Assembly (NCBI RefSeq): GCF_000970855.1
Contig: NZ_KQ034046.1
Span: forward strand, 311,053-375,052
DNA: 64,000 nucleotides
Source: Lactobacillus helsingborgensis
GTDB lineage: Bacteria > Bacillota > Bacilli > Lactobacillales > Lactobacillaceae
Reading direction: 5' to 3'
The first letter of the stretch is position 1. Every line of letters begins with the position of its first letter. Shown here in pieces: positions 8,065 to 37,442 of this stretch. Both the position numbers and the translations under genes were made by a program. The notes under the pieces were generated by a model that made no database searches, was not told the DNA's origin, and saw only the letters and a list, made by a program, of their open reading frames with translations.

Positions 8065-8081
8065 TGAAATAGTTGAATACG

Positions 8082-8209
8082 GTTTCTTCGGGGCAGGGTG
8101 CAATTCCTTACCGACGGTGACAATTAATAATTGAAGTCCGTGACCCGCGTTTTGCGGTGGAACTAGTGAGAGTCTAGTACCGACAGTTATAGTCTGGATG
8201 GGAGAAGAA
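8082..8209 (+). promoter_or_regulatory. FMN riboswitch (RFN element)
   Basis: The conserved RFN blocks are present in order: TCTTCGGGGCAGGGTG, ATTCCTTACCGACGGTGA, GTCCGTGACCCGCG, then TAGTACCGACAGTTATAG and TCTGGATGGGAGAAGA. A terminator hairpin follows at 8281-8312 before ribD. FMN binding should favour termination, so the four rib genes are expressed when flavin is scarce. Confidence 0.97.
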
Positions 8210-8280
8210 CAAACAAGATTAGACAGAAAACTCGCGTCGTTATTAAACTTCGCTGAAATCTTATTTGATGAATAAAAAAT

Positions 8281-30229: not shown

Positions 30230-31033
30230 TTAAGCCAGTAAAATAGCATCGTCTTCAAGTTCAGAACCAACGTGCTTTTGGAACAATTCCATTAACTTAG
30301 GCACAGTTAAGTTTTGCTTATCTTCCCCGGCTAAGTCAATGGCAACACGCCCTTGGTGCAACATAATCAAACGATTGCCATAGCGGATTGCATCTTCCAT
30401 GTTATGGGTAACCATAAATGCTGTCAAATGCTGTTCAGAAATCAACTTTTCAGTTAATTGCATGACCGTTATTGAAGTTTGTGGATCAAGAGCCGCAGTA
30501 TGCTCATCCAGTAAAATCAAATCTGGTCTTTGCAAAGTAGCCATTAAGAGTGTAATTGCTTGTCTTTGACCACCGGAAAGAAGTCCAATTTCAGTTTCCA
30601 AACGATTTTCCAGATTTAAGTTAAGTTGTGCAAGCTGTTTTTTGAAAAACTTTCTATCCTGTTTTTTAACTCCAGGACGAAAGCCCCGCCGTTGACCTCT
30701 TTTCATTGCCAAGGCTAGATTTTCTTCGACGGTCAGTCTTACTGCAGTCCCCATTTTAGGATCTTGGAAGACGCGACTGATATTTTGGGCACGTTTAGTT
30801 ACAGGCAATTTGGTAATGTCGTTGCCATTTAAAATTATTTGACCTTCTTGAATTGGCAGCGTTCCGGCAATGCTGTTAAGCAGCGTAGATTTTCCAGCAC
30901 CGTTACTACCAATAATAGTTACAAAATCGCCTGCTTCTAAATTAAGATCAATTCCGCGCAGTACCCGATTTTCGTTTACGGTTCCGCGCTCAAATGTTTG
31001 ATGTAAGTTTTTAATTTTTAGTACTTCCGGCAT
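30230..31033 (-). CDS. ABC transporter ATP-binding protein (TrpZ-type)
   Basis: The 267-residue ATPase has Walker A GSNGAGKST near residue 43, a Q-loop, the ABC signature LLSGGQRQA, Walker B LILLDEHTAALDP, and the switch histidine in FMVTHNMEDA. The EHTAALDPQTS form is characteristic of ATPases paired with ABC_sub_bind-type receptors (the pneumococcal TrpXYZ group). It overlaps the permease by 23 bp. It powers uptake for the adjacent permease and two receptors. Confidence 0.88.
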   Translation of the reverse strand: MPEVLKIKNLHQTFERGTVNENRVLRGIDLNLEAGDFVTIIGSNGAGKSTLLNSIAGTLPIQEGQIILNGNDITKLPVTKRAQNISRVFQDPKMGTAVRLTVEENLALAMKRGQRRGFRPGVKKQDRKFFKKQLAQLNLNLENRLETEIGLLSGGQRQAITLLMATLQRPDLILLDEHTAALDPQTSITVMQLTEKLISEQHLTAFMVTHNMEDAIRYGNRLIMLHQGRVAIDLAGEDKQNLTVPKLMELFQKHVGSELEDDAILLA

Positions 31034-31928
31034 CTTTTTTTCCTCCTTTTAGATTGTGTGGTAAATGGAAATTAGGTAATGTTAAACAGACCACTAGAAC
31101 TAAGGCTGAAGCTAATTTGGCATCAGACGGTTCAACGTTCATTTGGAATACCAGAGCTAAAATTAAGCGGTAAATAATCGCGCCTACAACTAATGTAAGT
31201 AAACGACCGCCAATTGGCAGATTCCTGATAAGTACTTCTGCGATAATGATAGAAGCTAATCCAATAACCAAAGTACCTACACCAGAGTTTAAATCGGCAA
31301 AGCCGTTATTTTGTGCTAACAGTCCGCCGGATAGGGCAATGCAGCCGTTAGAAATCATGTAACCTAAAATTTTCATTCCCTGAGTTTTGATGCCGTTGGC
31401 AGCACTCATTTGAGGGTTATCACCAGTGGCTCTCATAGCCAAGCCTATTTCTGTTTTGAAGAAAACGACTAATAAGAAGATCACTAAAAGTGCTATTATC
31501 AGTCCCATTGCGATCACAGCATTATTACGACTTAACCCCCAGTTTTGCGCTATGGTAAAAACCGTGTCTTTGCCAAGTAGTGAAACATTAGCAGCATTCT
31601 GCATTACTCTGGAAGTAATTGAATATAATCCAGTCATAGTGATAATTCCTGCTAACAAAGAAGGTATACGCAATTTTGTGTTCAAAATGCCCGTAACCAA
31701 ACCGGCAATTAAGCCGCCAATAAATGCAGCGCCAGTTGCTAAGATAGGATTAATTCCCTTAATTATGCACATGGTGGCAATGGCTCCTCCTAAGGGAAAA
31801 CTACCTTCTGCTGTCATATCGGCTAAGTCTAAAATACGAAAAGTTAGGTAGACCCCAATTGCCATCAACGACCAGAGTAGTCCCTGTGAAGTAGACGATA
31901 GTAATAACTCCCAAAATGTATTCAACAT
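31011..31928 (-). CDS. ABC transporter permease (TrpY-type)
   Basis: The 305-residue membrane protein belongs to the branched-chain-type (BPD_transp_2) permeases: TSQGLLWSLMAIGVYLTFRI at the start, DLADMTAEGSFPLGGAIA, and GLAMRATGDNPQMSAANGI as the ATPase-coupling loop. About eight to nine helices are predicted. It is encoded between a receptor and the ATPase in one operon. The family imports aromatic or related small molecules; the receptor decides specificity. Confidence 0.87.
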   Translation of the reverse strand: MLNTFWELLLSSTSQGLLWSLMAIGVYLTFRILDLADMTAEGSFPLGGAIATMCIIKGINPILATGAAFIGGLIAGLVTGILNTKLRIPSLLAGIITMTGLYSITSRVMQNAANVSLLGKDTVFTIAQNWGLSRNNAVIAMGLIIALLVIFLLVVFFKTEIGLAMRATGDNPQMSAANGIKTQGMKILGYMISNGCIALSGGLLAQNNGFADLNSGVGTLVIGLASIIIAEVLIRNLPIGGRLLTLVVGAIIYRLILALVFQMNVEPSDAKLASALVLVVCLTLPNFHLPHNLKGGKKDAGSTKN

Positions 31929-31955: not shown

Positions 31956-32924
31956 TTATTTAGGTGCTTTAATCGAATTAGGGTTAATGCCAAGGGCTTT
32001 AGCCATCTTTTTATTAACAACTAATTTTAGATCTGTAGCTTTTTCAACTGGCATATCTTTAGGTTTTGCCTTACCAGATAAAATTTTGGCAGCCATTTTG
32101 CCAGTTTGTTTACCAAGAGCTTCATAATCAATTCCGATAGAAGCCAAACCACCAGTTTTTACTTGATCAGTTGAACCGGCAACTAAAGGAATTTTCTTTT
32201 CTTTGACTACTTTACCAATAATTGAAGAAGCAGAAGCAAATGTGTTGTCTGTTGGTACGTAAATGCCTTGGACTTTACCAGCTAAAGTTTCTGTTACTTG
32301 TTGAACATCGTTAGTGGTATTAGCAGTCTTAACTACCACTTTAACTCCAGCTTTTTTAAGTGACTTAATGGCTAAATCTGCTTGAATTTTTGAATTGGCT
32401 TCACCAGCATTGTACATAATCCCGATTGTTTTGGCTTTAGGCACAATTGATAAGAGCAGCCTGATTTGCTTATCAATTGAAACCATGTCGGTTGTACCAG
32501 TAACATTACGCCCCGGCTTAGCATCTGAATTAACCAGTTTAGCCGCCTTTAGGTCGGTTACAGCAGTAACCACGATGGGGATATCCTGCGTAGCGTTGGC
32601 CACACTTTGTGCTGCTGGTGTGGCAATACCCAATATTAAATCTGATTTTTCATTAACTAGTTTTTCACTCATACTCTTTAAATTGTCTTGACTGTTTTGG
32701 GCATTTTGGTAATCAATCTTGAGATTTTTACCTTCAACGTAACCTTCTTCTTTTAAGCCTTCCTTAAAACCTTTGTTGGCTTCATCTAAAGACGGGTGCT
32801 GCACCACTTGCAAAATTCCCACGTGTTTAACAGTGGAAGTGCTGCCGGTTTTTTTGCTGCTGCAACCTCCTAGCAGCAATAACCCGGCTAAAGTTATTCC
32901 CATGACTAATTTTTTGATCCGCAT
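31956..32924 (-). CDS. ABC substrate-binding lipoprotein (ABC_sub_bind family), copy 1
   Basis: This lipoprotein of about 322 residues has a lipobox (LLLGGC, cysteine near residue 21 of the short form) and the two-lobed fold of the PF04392-type receptors, with HVGILQVVQHPSLDEA and IGIMYNAGEANSKIQADL. TrpX of pneumococcus belongs here and binds aromatic amino acids. ATG 32924 is preferred because GGAGG overlaps the upstream ATG at 32939. It is the first gene of the receptor-permease-ATPase operon and lies directly behind attenuator 1. It is about 80 percent identical by eye to copy 2 at 33351-34322. Confidence 0.88.
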   Translation of the reverse strand: MRIKKLVMGITLAGLLLLGGCSSKKTGSTSTVKHVGILQVVQHPSLDEANKGFKEGLKEEGYVEGKNLKIDYQNAQNSQDNLKSMSEKLVNEKSDLILGIATPAAQSVANATQDIPIVVTAVTDLKAAKLVNSDAKPGRNVTGTTDMVSIDKQIRLLLSIVPKAKTIGIMYNAGEANSKIQADLAIKSLKKAGVKVVVKTANTTNDVQQVTETLAGKVQGIYVPTDNTFASASSIIGKVVKEKKIPLVAGSTDQVKTGGLASIGIDYEALGKQTGKMAAKILSGKAKPKDMPVEKATDLKLVVNKKMAKALGINPNSIKAPK

Positions 32925-32954
32925 TTTCTTTTCCTCCATCTAACTATCAGTAAC

Positions 32955-33128
32955 ATAAAAACACCCACTTATTCCTAAGTGGGTGTACAAGTTATTATTT
33001 TGATTAATAATCATTTGTGATTAACCACTTAGAAAGCTATGTGGCTAACCGCAACTAAAGGACTCTAGCCATCATAGATAAATTCAAAACTTGAATCTGG
33101 TTTGAATTCATCTTGATGAACCCAAACC
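32955..33128 (-). promoter_or_regulatory. Attenuator 1: mutually exclusive RNA helices ending in a terminator
   Basis: On the minus strand, going downstream from the leader peptide, four elements follow. (a) UUAUCUAUGAUGGCUAG-type segment 2 (33065-33080) pairs with the last codons of the peptide at 15 of 16 positions. (b) GGUUAGCCAC (33041-33050) pairs with GUGGUUAAUC (33019-33028). (c) The terminator ACACCCACUUAG/UAAGUGGGUGU has a U run (32957-32986). Alternative pairings are (d) UGGCUAG of segment 2 with UUAGCCA of segment 3, and (e) UUUCUAAGUGG of segment 4 with CCACUUAGGAA of the terminator. A ribosome held on the leader peptide would favour d and e, hence readthrough. No T-box motif (GGGTGGNACC) is present. 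Confidence 0.75.
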
Positions 33129-33194
33129 CTATCTAAAATAGCTAAAGTAATAACGATTATTCAGTTGTGAGACGTGTTTAATATAATATTTCAT
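33129..33194 (-). CDS. Leader peptide 1 (21 residues, aromatic-rich)
   Basis: This frame opens with ATG (33194) nine bases after a perfect GGAGG (33204-33208). It encodes MKYYIKHVS followed by QLNNRYYFSYFR and stop. Seven of 21 residues are Tyr or Phe, five of them in the last seven codons. The last codons and stop form the 5' strand of the first attenuator helix. The same C-terminal peptide is encoded in front of receptor copy 2, with the same RBS spacing. Four of the six codon differences over the shared 13 codons are synonymous, which indicates selection on the peptide. It is probably a regulatory peptide sensed during translation. Confidence 0.8.
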   Translation of the reverse strand: MKYYIKHVSQLNNRYYFSYFR

Positions 33195-33223
33195 TAAGAT
33201 CAACCTCCAACCTTAATGAGAAG

Positions 33224-33252
33224 ATTATAAAAAATAAAGAAGAAAATGTCAA
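33224..33252 (-). promoter_or_regulatory. Promoter of receptor copy 1 operon
   Basis: Consensus TTGACA (33247-33252) and TATAAT (33224-33229) are exactly 17 bp apart on the minus strand, 30 bp before the leader-peptide ATG. Confidence 0.92.
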
Positions 33253-33305: not shown

Positions 33306-33338
33306 TTAAAAGACCGCTTCTGTGCGGTCTTTTAAACG
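33306..33338. terminator. Terminator after receptor copy 2
   Basis: AAAAGACCGC and GCGGTCTTTT pair around a short loop, 13 bp past the stop of receptor copy 2. This makes copy 2 a single-gene unit separate from the ABC operon. Confidence 0.88.
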
Positions 33339-33350
33339 TCTTACAAAAAA

Positions 33351-34322
33351 TTATTTAGGAGCTTTAATTGACTTGGGATCAATTCCCAGTGCCTTGGCCA
33401 TGCTCTTGTTTACCACTAATTTCATATCATGTGCTTTTTCGACTGGCATATTCGCTGGTTTAGCCTTACCAGATAAAATCTTGGCAGCCATTTTGCCAGT
33501 TTGTTCTCCTAGTAATTCGTAATCAATTCCAATTGAGGCCAAGCCACCAGTTCTAACTTGGTCAACTGAACTTGCTACTAAAGGAACTTTCTTTTCTTTA
33601 ACTACTTTGCCAACTACTGAAGCTGCTGAATCAAAGGTATTATCAGTAGGAACGAAAATGCCATCAACTTTTGAAGCCAGAGTTTCTGTTACTTGTTGGA
33701 CATCGTTAGTCGTATTTGCTGTTTTAATTAAAACTTTCACTCCCGCCTTTTTCAATGCAGCTGTTGCTAAGTCAGCCTGAATTTTGGAGTTTGATTCACC
33801 AGCGTTGTACATGATACCGATAGTTTTAGCCTTCGGAACAATTGACAGGAGCAGTTTGATCTGGCGTTTAATTGATACCATATCTGTTGTTCCCGTAATA
33901 TTCCTGCCCGGTTTCTCATCTGAATTAACGAGTTTGGCTGCTTTTAAATCAGTAACTGCGGTAACAACAGTAGGAATTTTTTGCGTAGCATTAGCCACAC
34001 TCTGAGCAGCTGGTGTTGCAATACCTAAAATCAAATCGGACTTTTCGTTGACTAGTTTTTCACTCATACTCTTTAAATTATCTTGATTATTTTGCGCATT
34101 CTGGTAATCAATTTTGAGATTTTTGCCTTCAACGAAGCCTTCTTCTTTTAATCCTTTTTTAAAACCTTTGTATGCCTTGTCTAATGACGGGTGCTGCACT
34201 ACTTGCAACACACCGACATGTTTAACTTCAGTGGTGGATTTGTCTGCTTTTTTACTGCTGCAACCGCCTAACGTCATTAATCCTACAATTGTAATTCCTG
34301 CAACTAATTTTCTCAAATGCAT
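33351..34322 (-). CDS. ABC substrate-binding lipoprotein (ABC_sub_bind family), copy 2
   Basis: This 323-residue paralogue of the receptor at 31956-32924 has lipobox TLGGC near residue 20 and the same motifs (HVGVLQVVQHPSLDKA, IGIMYNAGESNSKIQADL). It has its own promoter, leader peptide, attenuator and terminator. No permease or ATPase accompanies it, so it presumably docks on the neighbouring transporter, widening specificity or changing affinity. RBS GGAGG lies eight bases before ATG. The duplication covers the gene and its whole control region, so it arose as a tandem copy. Confidence 0.88.
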   Translation of the reverse strand: MHLRKLVAGITIVGLMTLGGCSSKKADKSTTEVKHVGVLQVVQHPSLDKAYKGFKKGLKEEGFVEGKNLKIDYQNAQNNQDNLKSMSEKLVNEKSDLILGIATPAAQSVANATQKIPTVVTAVTDLKAAKLVNSDEKPGRNITGTTDMVSIKRQIKLLLSIVPKAKTIGIMYNAGESNSKIQADLATAALKKAGVKVLIKTANTTNDVQQVTETLASKVDGIFVPTDNTFDSAASVVGKVVKEKKVPLVASSVDQVRTGGLASIGIDYELLGEQTGKMAAKILSGKAKPANMPVEKAHDMKLVVNKSMAKALGIDPKSIKAPK

Positions 34323-34333
34323 CTTGTGCCTCC

Positions 34334-34507
34334 ATAAAAAATACCCACTTACTTCTAAGCGGGTACACAGGAATTAAATTACCAAAATGATTGGATGTGG
34401 TTAGCCACTTAGAAAGCTATGTGGCTAACCATACTAAAAGAGCCTAGCCATCATAGATAAATTCAAACTTGAGTTTCGTTTGAATTCATCTAGATGAACC
34501 CAAACGC
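34334..34507 (-). promoter_or_regulatory. Attenuator 2: paralogous RNA switch before receptor copy 2
   Basis: It has the same order of elements as attenuator 1. A 16-bp helix forms between the end of the leader peptide and a segment at about 34444-34459. A hairpin GGUUAGCCAC/GUGGCUAACC (34399-34430) and the terminator UACCCGCUUA/UAAGUGGGUA with a U run (34335-34366) follow. The alternative UUUCUAAGUGG/CCGCUUAGAAG antiterminator again has 11 pairs. Base changes between copies keep pairing (GUUAAUC becomes GCUAACC; ACUUAG becomes GCUUAG), which supports the structure. Confidence 0.75.
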
Positions 34508-34564
34508 TTATCTATAGTAGCTAAGGTAATAACGATTATTTAGCTGTTTACTAAAAGTAATCAT
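34508..34564 (-). CDS. Leader peptide 2 (18 residues, aromatic-rich)
   Basis: ATG (34564) follows GGAGG (34574-34578) by nine bases, as in leader 1. The peptide reads MITFSK, then QLNNRYYLSYYR and stop. Only the C-terminal 12 residues match leader 1; the N-terminal part is unrelated. Conserved are the RYY pair, the SY pair and the final Arg (AGA codon) before stop. The end of the frame is the 5' strand of the first helix of attenuator 2. Confidence 0.8.
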   Translation of the reverse strand: MITFSKQLNNRYYLSYYR

Positions 34565-34593: not shown

Positions 34594-34622
34594 ATTATAA
34601 AAAAATAAAAAATTAAAGTCAA
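34594..34622 (-). promoter_or_regulatory. Promoter of receptor copy 2
   Basis: TTGACT (34617-34622) and TATAAT (34594-34599) are 17 bp apart on the minus strand, 30 bp before the leader-peptide ATG, the same geometry as at copy 1. Confidence 0.9.
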
Positions 34623-34850: not shown

Positions 34851-34880
34851 ACAGATAATAAAAACATGGGGGAAATAAAC

Positions 34881-37442
34881 ATGAAGGCAGCTAAAGAAAG
34901 AGTGCTAAAGCAAATAGATGAATTACCGGATAACGTGACAATTGCGACAAGCGAACTAGCTGAGAAACTAAATTTATCCAGATCAGTAGTTAGTCACTAT
35001 TTAAATCAATTGCTTAAAGACAAGAAAGTACAAAAAATTACTCAAAGACCAGTTAGGTGGGCTAAAATTTCTGCTGCCAATTTTTCTGATCAAGCAGCTT
35101 TTAAGAACGTGATTGGAAATAGTGGCTCGCTTAAAAAGGCAATCGCACAAATTAGTGCGGCAGCAGCTTATCCACCTGCTGGGTTGAACGTCTTAATTAC
35201 CGGTAAGTCAGGCGTAGGAAAAAGCTTTTTGGCCAGTAAATTATACTCGTATTCTAAGGAAATAGGCGTGATTGGCAAAAAGGCTCCGTATATCGTTTTA
35301 AACTGTGCCAATTATGCCAATAATCCTGAACTTGTGTCCAGTATGCTCTTTGGCTATGTTCAAGGAGCTTTTACCGGGGCAGACACGGATAAAGAGGGAT
35401 TATTAAAAGAGGCGGATGGCGGCTATTTGTTTTTAGATGAAGTACACAGGCTCAGTAGTGAAAATCAGGAAAAACTCTTTAGCTTTATTGATTCTGGCGA
35501 ATTTTACAAAATGGGTGATAATGCTCACGCTTGTAAAGCAAATGTCAGGTTGATTATGGCAACAACCGAAAAGCCGGAAGCTGTTTTGTTGCCCACATTT
35601 TTGAGACGCATTCCCGTCCGCATAAAATTACCGGATTATATTGAGCGTCCAATTGATGAACGGCTGCAACTAATTAATTCTCTGTTTTTGCATGAAGCTC
35701 ATAAGATAAATAAAAAGATTGTAATTGATCAAAAGGTAGTTTCAGCACTTTTACAGCTAAAGCATACTGGTAATATCGGCTATTTGAAAAATATTGTGAA
35801 AGTTTCTTGTGCCACAGCCTATCATGACAGCAGTAGTGCGGAAACAATCACCTTAAAACTAAAAGACTTGGATTTGGCTTCTTTGCCGCATTTTAAAGAT
35901 TATGGTGCCTTGACAGTTGATCCTAATGAAAAAAACCGGTACACACCACGTATCAGTTTAACCGCGAAACTATTAGAAATAACTTCTGCTTTACAAGAAC
36001 TCAGCACGGATTTTACCAATACCAATTTAAATGCCTGTCGTTTACAGATTCAGGCGCTTAATAAATTTATTACGCAAGGGATGCTGGCATCAGGATTGCA
36101 TGTGCAACACAATTATCTTTTTAAAAAAATCATCACCAACCAGTACGGCTTGAACAAAACGGACTATTTGGAACCGGTCATGTATGTTCTGTATGAGCGT
36201 CATTTTAAACCCAACTGCGACAAAGAAAAGCTCACAGAAGTTATAACTACTCATTTACCAAGATCGCTGCATGTTGCCAGTAAATTTTATGAAAAATTAT
36301 CCGTTCTTGATGAGGAAAGTCAAACCAGTTTAGCGTTAATTTTAGCATTACTTTTAAGTGATCACGTGGATGAAAATATTCAGCTGCGCGGATTAATGGT
36401 GGCACATGGAGAAAGCACGGCAACCAGCATTCAGGCTGTGGTAAATTCTCTATGTGGCAATTATGTTTTTGATGCGATTGATATGCCTATTGATGCCGAC
36501 ATTGCGACAATTATTAATGAAGCTAATAAGTTGATCAGCAGTTTTAATACCACTAATGGCTTCATATTAATGGTTGATATGGGATCGCTGAGCCAACTCT
36601 ATAGTCAAATCAGTGCACAATTAGATGGTGATTTATTAGTCGTCAATAATTTGACGACTTTAACTGCTTTAGATTTAGCACTCAAAATGAAGCAGAATTT
36701 ACCTTTTAAACAAATTGCAGAAAAGGCCGATAAAGACTATGACATTGGTGTCAAATATTACGAAGGCTTTTCTCAGTCAATGAACATCTTAGTCTCGTGT
36801 ATTTCCGGGTTGGGTATAGCTGAGAAAATTAGTGATATCATTCGGGACTATTTACCTGCCAGCATAAAGGTGATCCCCTTAGGCTATAATTCACTAAAAG
36901 AAAAAATTGCCGGCAAAAAATGGTCCTACTTTGACCGAACTTTATTTGTGCTGACTACTATTGATTTAACGGAAAAAGTTAAATTTAACCACATGAATCT
37001 GTATGACATACTGGATTCCAGTGGTGAAAATAAGTTGAAAAAATGGCTTTCTCCTTATCTGACCCCAAAGCAGATGGAGAACTTCAACAACCAATTACTG
37101 CGGTTCTTTTCTAAAGAGGGTATTTCTGAACGTTTAAGTTTTTTAAATCCCGATGTAGTTTTAAGTGAAGTGGAAACCATTAATAAAAAATACGAGGACT
37201 TTTATAATTTAAGGTTAGATGGCAAGGTTAAATTAAACTTATACATGCACATTGCCCTGATGATTGAACGTTCAATGATGCACAACACGACTGAAGTCGA
37301 AGTTGAACCCAAGTCAGACAAAGAAAAAGGCTTTTTTAAAATTACCAAGAGTATTTTTCAGCCTATTGAAATCAAATACAACATTAAGGTTTCTAGTTAT
37401 GAAATGTCATTGTTGTACGAGTTGTTTAAACAGTTTATTTAA
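34881..37442 (+). CDS. levR: Sigma-54-dependent PTS activator, LevR/ManR type
   Basis: The regulator of about 853 residues has an N-terminal winged helix (IATSELAEKLNLSRSVVSHY). The AAA+ domain has Walker A TGKSGVGKS near residue 108, the sigma-54-contacting GAFTGA and Walker B GGYLFLDEVHRL. Two PTS regulation domains flank an EIIA-Man-like domain (VAHGESTATSI) and an EIIB-Gat-like domain (LVSCISGLGIAEK). PTS phosphorylation should tune it. It lies immediately upstream of a perfect -24/-12 promoter and a mannose-family PTS, and rpoN is encoded a few genes on. Start ATG 34881 follows GGGGGAA. Confidence 0.92.
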   Translation: MKAAKERVLKQIDELPDNVTIATSELAEKLNLSRSVVSHYLNQLLKDKKVQKITQRPVRWAKISAANFSDQAAFKNVIGNSGSLKKAIAQISAAAAYPPAGLNVLITGKSGVGKSFLASKLYSYSKEIGVIGKKAPYIVLNCANYANNPELVSSMLFGYVQGAFTGADTDKEGLLKEADGGYLFLDEVHRLSSENQEKLFSFIDSGEFYKMGDNAHACKANVRLIMATTEKPEAVLLPTFLRRIPVRIKLPDYIERPIDERLQLINSLFLHEAHKINKKIVIDQKVVSALLQLKHTGNIGYLKNIVKVSCATAYHDSSSAETITLKLKDLDLASLPHFKDYGALTVDPNEKNRYTPRISLTAKLLEITSALQELSTDFTNTNLNACRLQIQALNKFITQGMLASGLHVQHNYLFKKIITNQYGLNKTDYLEPVMYVLYERHFKPNCDKEKLTEVITTHLPRSLHVASKFYEKLSVLDEESQTSLALILALLLSDHVDENIQLRGLMVAHGESTATSIQAVVNSLCGNYVFDAIDMPIDADIATIINEANKLISSFNTTNGFILMVDMGSLSQLYSQISAQLDGDLLVVNNLTTLTALDLALKMKQNLPFKQIAEKADKDYDIGVKYYEGFSQSMNILVSCISGLGIAEKISDIIRDYLPASIKVIPLGYNSLKEKIAGKKWSYFDRTLFVLTTIDLTEKVKFNHMNLYDILDSSGENKLKKWLSPYLTPKQMENFNNQLLRFFSKEGISERLSFLNPDVVLSEVETINKKYEDFYNLRLDGKVKLNLYMHIALMIERSMMHNTTEVEVEPKSDKEKGFFKITKSIFQPIEIKYNIKVSSYEMSLLYELFKQFI

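Follow-up and report, generated by a model that had tools for sequence, protein, structure and literature searches.

The window, by which we mean the whole analysed stretch of 64,000 nucleotides from Lactobacillus helsingborgensis, carries on its reverse strand two genes for PF04392 receptors, one of them followed by genes for a permease and an ABC ATPase, and each receptor gene is preceded by a promoter, a short leader frame and a chain of RNA segments that ends in a terminator (Table 1). As read from the sequence, the window seems to hold two receptor units under separate control, with a terminator-like hairpin between them. Elsewhere in the window, a divergently oriented regulator (34866-37442, forward strand) combines a sigma-54 activator domain with PRD and EIIA-type domains and is DagR-like, scoring under the DagR cut-off, and an FMN riboswitch (RF00050, 107.7 bits) is located at 8080-8213 of the forward strand.

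Table 1. Features of the two leader and receptor units, in coordinates of the window.
Feature	Positions	Strand	Remarks
Promoter of leader B	34594..34622	-	TTGACT-17-TATAAT
Leader peptide B	34508..34564	-	MITFSKQLNNRYYLSYYR-stop
Leader B segments and U-run	34336..34525	-	1 34525-34508; 2 34459-34443; 3 34431-34416; 4 34415-34398; 5 34366-34353; 6 34354-34341
Receptor 1	33351..34322	-	PF04392; single gene behind leader B
Terminator-like hairpin	33308..33333	-	3' of receptor 1, between both units; read from the sequence, unscored
Promoter of leader A	33224..33252	-	TTGACA 33252-33247, 17 nt, TATAAT 33229-33224 (sequence)
Leader peptide A	33129..33194	-	MKYYIKHVSQLNNRYYFSYFR-stop; ATG 33194; GGAGG about 9 nt 5' of ATG
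Segment 1, leader A	33129..33146	-	codons FSYFR and stop; partner segment 2
Segment 2, leader A	33063..33080	-	partner segment 1 or 3
Segment 3, leader A	33036..33050	-	partner segment 2 (antitermination) or 4
Segment 4, leader A	33021..33035	-	partner segment 3 or 5
Segment 5, leader A	32972..32986	-	terminator 5' arm; antiterminator partner segment 4
Segment 6 (32973-32961) and U-run, leader A	32957..32973	-	terminator 3' side
RF02863 (sRNA_2410) match, leader A	32972..33145	-	Rfam covariance match, 70.4 bits (gathering cut-off 61)
Receptor 2	31956..32924	-	PF04392 substrate-binding protein; behind leader A; Tyr at the pocket position that decides Trp binding
Permease	31011..31928	-	PF02653
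ABC ATPase	30230..31033	-	PF00005

The promoter, the 21-codon leader frame, the helices, the terminator and the antiterminator of leader A were re-read from the sequence at the sites given in an earlier note on this DNA. The pairing of segment 1 with segment 2 described there stands (16 pairs with one mismatch, -17.3 kcal/mol in the duplex model), but the last five codons with the stop span 18 nt (33146-33129) and not 16 nt, and the pairing of segment 2 with segment 3 is longer than had been proposed, with 11 to 12 pairs, one bulged A and about -14 kcal/mol. Helix 3:4 occupies 33050-33021 and the terminator 32986-32961, followed by the U-run, and the antiterminator 4:5 (-14.2 kcal/mol) has 11 complementary positions by eye, of which 10 are formed in the duplex model. 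The region 32950-33215 folds at -85.4 kcal/mol (z = -8.3), and none of 200 shuffles was as good. The element corresponds to Rfam family RF02863, catalogued as 'Enterococcus sRNA 2410', and its match at leader A exceeds the gathering cut-off, which argues against a chance resemblance.

A second, tandem element (leader B, 34564-34336), absent from the earlier note, is situated 1.4 kb further upstream, ahead of the other receptor gene. It shares 76% identity with leader A over 309 alignment columns, and its RF02863 match (34359-34524) reaches 56.1 bits, under the cut-off of 61. Two or three tandem matches, 1.3-2.4 kb apart as in the window, were also observed in other genomes of the family (L181-L184 in G436, G419, G452 and G398).

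At E<=0.001, RF02863 was detected in 215 of the 395 sampled Lactobacillales genomes and in 52 of 80 genera, with 99 of the 395 genomes above the curated cut-off; the count within the window's own family, Lactobacillaceae, is 37 of 397, and all 14 control genomes were devoid of the family. Searched across the class, a loose codon pattern matched 26 of 39 Lactobacillales genomes and 13 of 359 genomes of other Bacilli orders, the reversed control likewise giving 13 of 359. Matches outside the order were rejected as instances of the element and taken as chance, since those listed do not resemble it on reading. Altogether 192 loci were gathered, most of them chosen by the RNA model and some by the codon pattern; after six chance-like pattern loci (L103-L107, L122) had been dropped, 186 remained, 185 of which contain one of 166 distinct elements, and at locus L138 the frame ...QLNNYFYFSYFR lies just beyond the searched range.

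All 186 kept loci have a leader frame of the ...QLNNRYYFSYFR type. The frame starts with ATG in 166 of 166 elements, the Shine-Dalgarno score is at least 4 in 148 of them (a clear Shine-Dalgarno sequence is missing in 18), and the frame control returned 148 of 166 in the leader frame, with 0 and 1 for the remaining frames; the peptide frame, on whose conservation in relatives the earlier note had made its model depend, is thus kept. Among 126 distinct contexts of the core YFSYFR, 91 codons depart from the commonest codon, 46 of them by exchange between Phe and Tyr, 44 synonymously and one to Leu, a codon conservation that is partly ascertained, because RF02863 begins with these codons and the search expressions require aromatic tails. 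Aromatic residues also mark the 19 elements that the core expression does not capture, and Trp occurs in two of 166 peptides, each time before the core. Some Lactobacillaceae carry Phe-only leaders (QLNNEFAFSFFFR, FAFSFFFR), others Tyr-only and Tyr-rich ones (QLNNAYYYGYYG and QLNHAYYYGYFG, YYYGYYG and YYYGYFG); the core Arg is replaced by Gly in some elements, and the stop does not directly follow the core in 12 of 166, where it may come three codons later. An NCBIfam search with four leader peptides returned no match.

Ahead of the control codons, an LN motif is found in 133 of the 166 elements and missing in 33; it is preceded by Q in 93 of 113 distinct contexts, and in 129 of 133 cases LN and the core end are 7 to 10 residues apart. 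The bases around QLN are fixed where the code permits change (AAT 108 times versus AAC once, with the third base of the codon before Q mostly A), which points to a constraint on the RNA. A pairing of these bases with the Shine-Dalgarno region of their leader is conceivable (p = 0.016, 26 of 5000 permutations; anchored repeat p = 0.02, 35 of 5000). A pairing of QLN with region 2 was rejected (Wilcoxon p = 0.26; 256 of 5000 permutations did as well).

Automatic segmentation succeeded for 149 of the 166 elements (and failed for 17), which fell into 42 clusters, and covariation was assessed on the 42 cluster representatives by comparing the pairing of a segment with its own partner and with the partners of other elements, kinship being handled by clustering alone. 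The own partner was favoured for 1:2 (-17.6 versus -14.7 kcal/mol, p = 2e-5), for 2:3 (-13.1 versus -11.9 kcal/mol, p = 6e-5) and for 4:5 (-11.0 versus -7.5 kcal/mol, p = 1.5e-9), so that the alternative stems covary, the other property to which the earlier note had tied its model. Segment 4 was picked solely by its pairing with segment 3 and segment 5 solely by its pairing with segment 6; since the two were picked independently of each other, the 4:5 test is not circular, and the formed 4:5 pairs show up to six pair types at a position (38 of the 42 representatives used). The negative-control pairings 2:5, 3:5 and 4:6 were null on the same representatives, and a fourth, 1:4, was marginal (p = 0.04, 68 of 5000 permutations).

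When segment 1 was blocked in RNA truncated after segment 3, the expected number of 2:3 pairs rose in leader A from 0.1 to 12.4 and on average over the 149 elements from 5.1 to 8.7, and the stalled state clearly beat the free state in 30 of 42 representatives. In longer RNA at equilibrium, the same block had little effect, with 2:3 at 0.35 instead of 0.23, 4:5 at 0.42 instead of 0.35 and the full terminator still at 0.84; no clean switch was obtained, and leaders A and B kept 3:4 and the terminator. The attenuation model therefore needs co-transcriptional timing.

Downstream genes were assigned by protein cluster, with Pfam run on the representatives, and a first gene could be read for 164 elements. 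Receptor/ABC operons or aroE, aroF, aroC and pheA genes follow in 161 of these 164. Homologues of the window's PF04392 receptor account for 119 first genes, followed by shikimate dehydrogenase (33), DAHP synthase (6), prephenate dehydratase (2), chorismate synthase (1) and an aminotransferase (1); the other two are another solute receptor, assigned by reading only, and a PTS_EIIC_2 protein, a type with no known aromatic link. No trp gene occurs among the cluster representatives of the first downstream genes. The PTS_EIIC_2 membrane protein stands at locus L087 behind a variant leader ending in YYYFYFFKECL, and is possibly an aromatic transporter. The window's own genome gave no match to PF00793 (DAHP synthase) or PF01264 (chorismate synthase), from which it would follow that import matters greatly to this organism.

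The specificity of the receptors was approached through their closest solved structure, 6hni (CD0873), followed by 3lft (SP1069) and 3lkv (VC_1101). According to the available part of PMC6816091, these three proteins have been solved bound to Tyr, Trp and Phe, and Tyr versus Gln at one pocket position decides on Trp binding. At this position, the 119 receptors behind the leader carry Tyr (111) or Phe (8) and in no case Gln. Both receptors of the window carry Tyr, not Gln, and score 337 and 334 bits with the TrpX model NF041285, not reaching its curated cut-off of 390. These pocket residues support Tyr and Phe rather than Trp, in agreement with the control by Tyr and Phe suggested in the earlier note.

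Paralogues were compared in 20 genomes that we chose among those searched, where 45 of the 46 receptor matches could be read; the Trp-deciding position is Tyr or Phe in 24 and Gln in 21. Of the 24, 20 stand directly behind a leader (18 recognized by the search expression, and L233 and the window's receptor 1 by their known leaders, L189 and B respectively), and four stand further on in tandem (L217, L222, L232 and L237), presumably co-transcribed with the leader unit. When 20 of the 21 Gln receptors were rescanned for aromatic-tailed frames within up to 700 nt, the leader frame was not found, and four showed unrelated aromatic-tailed frames only; the 21st, L230, shares its open frame with L201, forming the second half of it. 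The leader thus belongs to the Phe/Tyr branch of the receptors. An Rfam scan of 20 loci found a T-box at three Gln loci and the RF04312 trpB motif at two. The latter, L198 and L201, are Trp-type receptor loci lacking a Tyr/Phe leader, and their RF04312 motif is perhaps the gbs1262 element of a 2015 paper. A single open frame of 674 residues at locus L201/L230 (G008:C3:57418-59199) encodes two PF04392 domains, both with Gln at the Trp-deciding position. Finally, the residue at the Tyr-hydroxyl position is acidic or Thr in 5 of 15 receptors behind Tyr-only or Tyr-rich leaders and in 1 of 104 others, a comparison that ignores kinship and is suggestive of a tie between this residue and such leaders.

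The element unites a translatable leader ORF, control codons that fit the downstream genes, a segment 1 that overlaps these codons, mutually exclusive helices and a terminator before the gene, as in ribosome-mediated attenuators. Our analysis supports the attenuator interpretation of the earlier note, and we consider it highly probable that six alternating RNA segments constitute a ribosome-mediated transcription attenuator reading the supply of charged tRNA-Tyr and tRNA-Phe. The computation covers anatomy and frame, their conservation, the covariation, the genes downstream and the type of receptor; from these we infer a stalling ribosome, the switch and its signal, as follows. With ample Tyr and Phe, the aromatic codons would be read fast and the ribosome would finish and depart; 1:2, 3:4 and the terminator 5:6 would then form, transcription would stop, and a short RNA such as 'sRNA_2410' would be left. 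With Tyr or Phe in short supply, the ribosome would halt on the YYFSYFR codons and cover segment 1, so that 2:3 and then 4:5 would pair, the terminator would be prevented and the import or biosynthesis operon would be transcribed. A more tentative thought, which we find rather doubtful, is that the codon content of the leader, be it mixed, Phe-only or Tyr-rich, forms an evolutionarily readable sensing code that tracks receptor specificity, with the QLN codons as an extra layer gating translation of the leader. That layer might be a helix with the leader's Shine-Dalgarno region or a brake exerted by the nascent chain.

The element has been encountered before. In the available part of PMC4448216, the gbs2033 element of S. 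agalactiae, located upstream of an ABC operon, was proposed in 2015 as a new riboswitch, and was described as conserved in Lactobacillales and present also before the aroFBC-tyrA operon of E. faecium; by gene context and conservation it is very probably our element. Eleven elements, among which gbs2033 seems to be counted, were reported there as a group to yield short and long transcripts from one start, and the term 'leader peptide' does not occur in the main text. What was interpreted as a riboswitch is read here as a leader-peptide attenuator. A 2017 study lists sRNA_2410 as an sRNA, the word 'leader' being absent from its main text (PMC5593968). It is the same RNA family, the RF02863 model beginning within the last codons of the leader and omitting the start of the frame. 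No description of a leader peptide for the RF02863 element was found in the open-licence papers searched.

These earlier classifications are to be weighed against attenuation. A metabolite riboswitch of the sort suggested for gbs2033, with an aromatic amino acid or a precursor as its direct ligand, would suit a conserved structured RNA with a terminator, so read in the available text of PMC4448216, in an aromatic gene context. We regard it as improbable: ATG, Shine-Dalgarno sequence and frame are all conserved, segment 1 consists of the Phe/Tyr codons themselves, which switch between Phe and Tyr, and the alternating helices account for the conserved parts with no aptamer. Slightly less improbable is an arrest peptide, a nascent QLNNxYYFSYFR chain that would itself respond to a ligand by stalling the ribosome; the frequent LN motif and the Q ahead of it speak for this. 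However, a fifth of the elements lack the motif, its spacing to the core end varies, and the fixed bases around QLN point to the RNA. The exchange of Arg for Gly, the displaced stop and the Phe-only and Tyr-rich forms likewise weaken nascent-peptide arrest, which the earlier note had offered as the alternative to Tyr/Phe charging; charging is the option that our data support.

That the RNA acts in trans, as implied by its current Rfam type 'Gene; sRNA', would agree with the 195-nt RNA of E. faecium and its two transcripts on Northern blots (PMC5593968, available part), yet this seems very unlikely as its sole role, since all 164 elements with a readable next gene stand before it in sense orientation, mostly before aromatic genes, and the presence of a terminator and an antiterminator lets the terminated leader account for the short RNA. 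A T-box sensing uncharged tRNA directly has precedents before the three Trp-type paralogues mentioned above and in the control of S. suis trpX, as stated in the available part of PMC9382623. It is nevertheless extremely unlikely here, where RF00230 has no match above cut-off in the window and a conserved coding frame stands in its place.

Attenuation through a leader peptide is a familiar kind of control. In the his operon attenuator of enterobacteria, the regulated amino acid abounds in the leader peptide, and the segments pair A:B, C:D and E:F or alternatively B:C and D:E. The Lactobacillales element, likened to it by this layout, shares the peptide with the regulated amino acid and the six alternating segments, and differs by its Tyr/Phe codons and its transporter and aro targets. 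In the pheL and trpL attenuators of Proteobacteria, the position of the ribosome picks terminator or antiterminator; this choice is alike, but the Lactobacillales element has an extra 3:4 relay, and the Rfam Trp_leader model RF00513 matches only at E = 0.066 (21.5 bits, cut-off 41). Reportedly, streptococci and lactococci were noted in 2003 to have a candidate regulatory signal ahead of aro genes. For Acholeplasma, a Phe-codon leader, uORFC-13-1, has been proposed to attenuate aroF (PMC8632094, available part), an idea similar by its description to ours, in a different lineage and with a different motif, and a His leader has been proposed in bacilli (PMC2965389, available part). With the kind of attenuator known and the element catalogued, what seems new is the identity of the element, what it reads and its breadth.

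If the attenuation model is true, an RNA family found in roughly half of the Lactobacillales species sampled would gain a mechanism and a signal, and bacteria known for T-boxes would also run their Tyr and Phe supply by classical leader-peptide attenuation. The leader would also provide a simple sequence rule that separates Phe/Tyr receptors from Trp receptors, a split blurred by the name TrpX.
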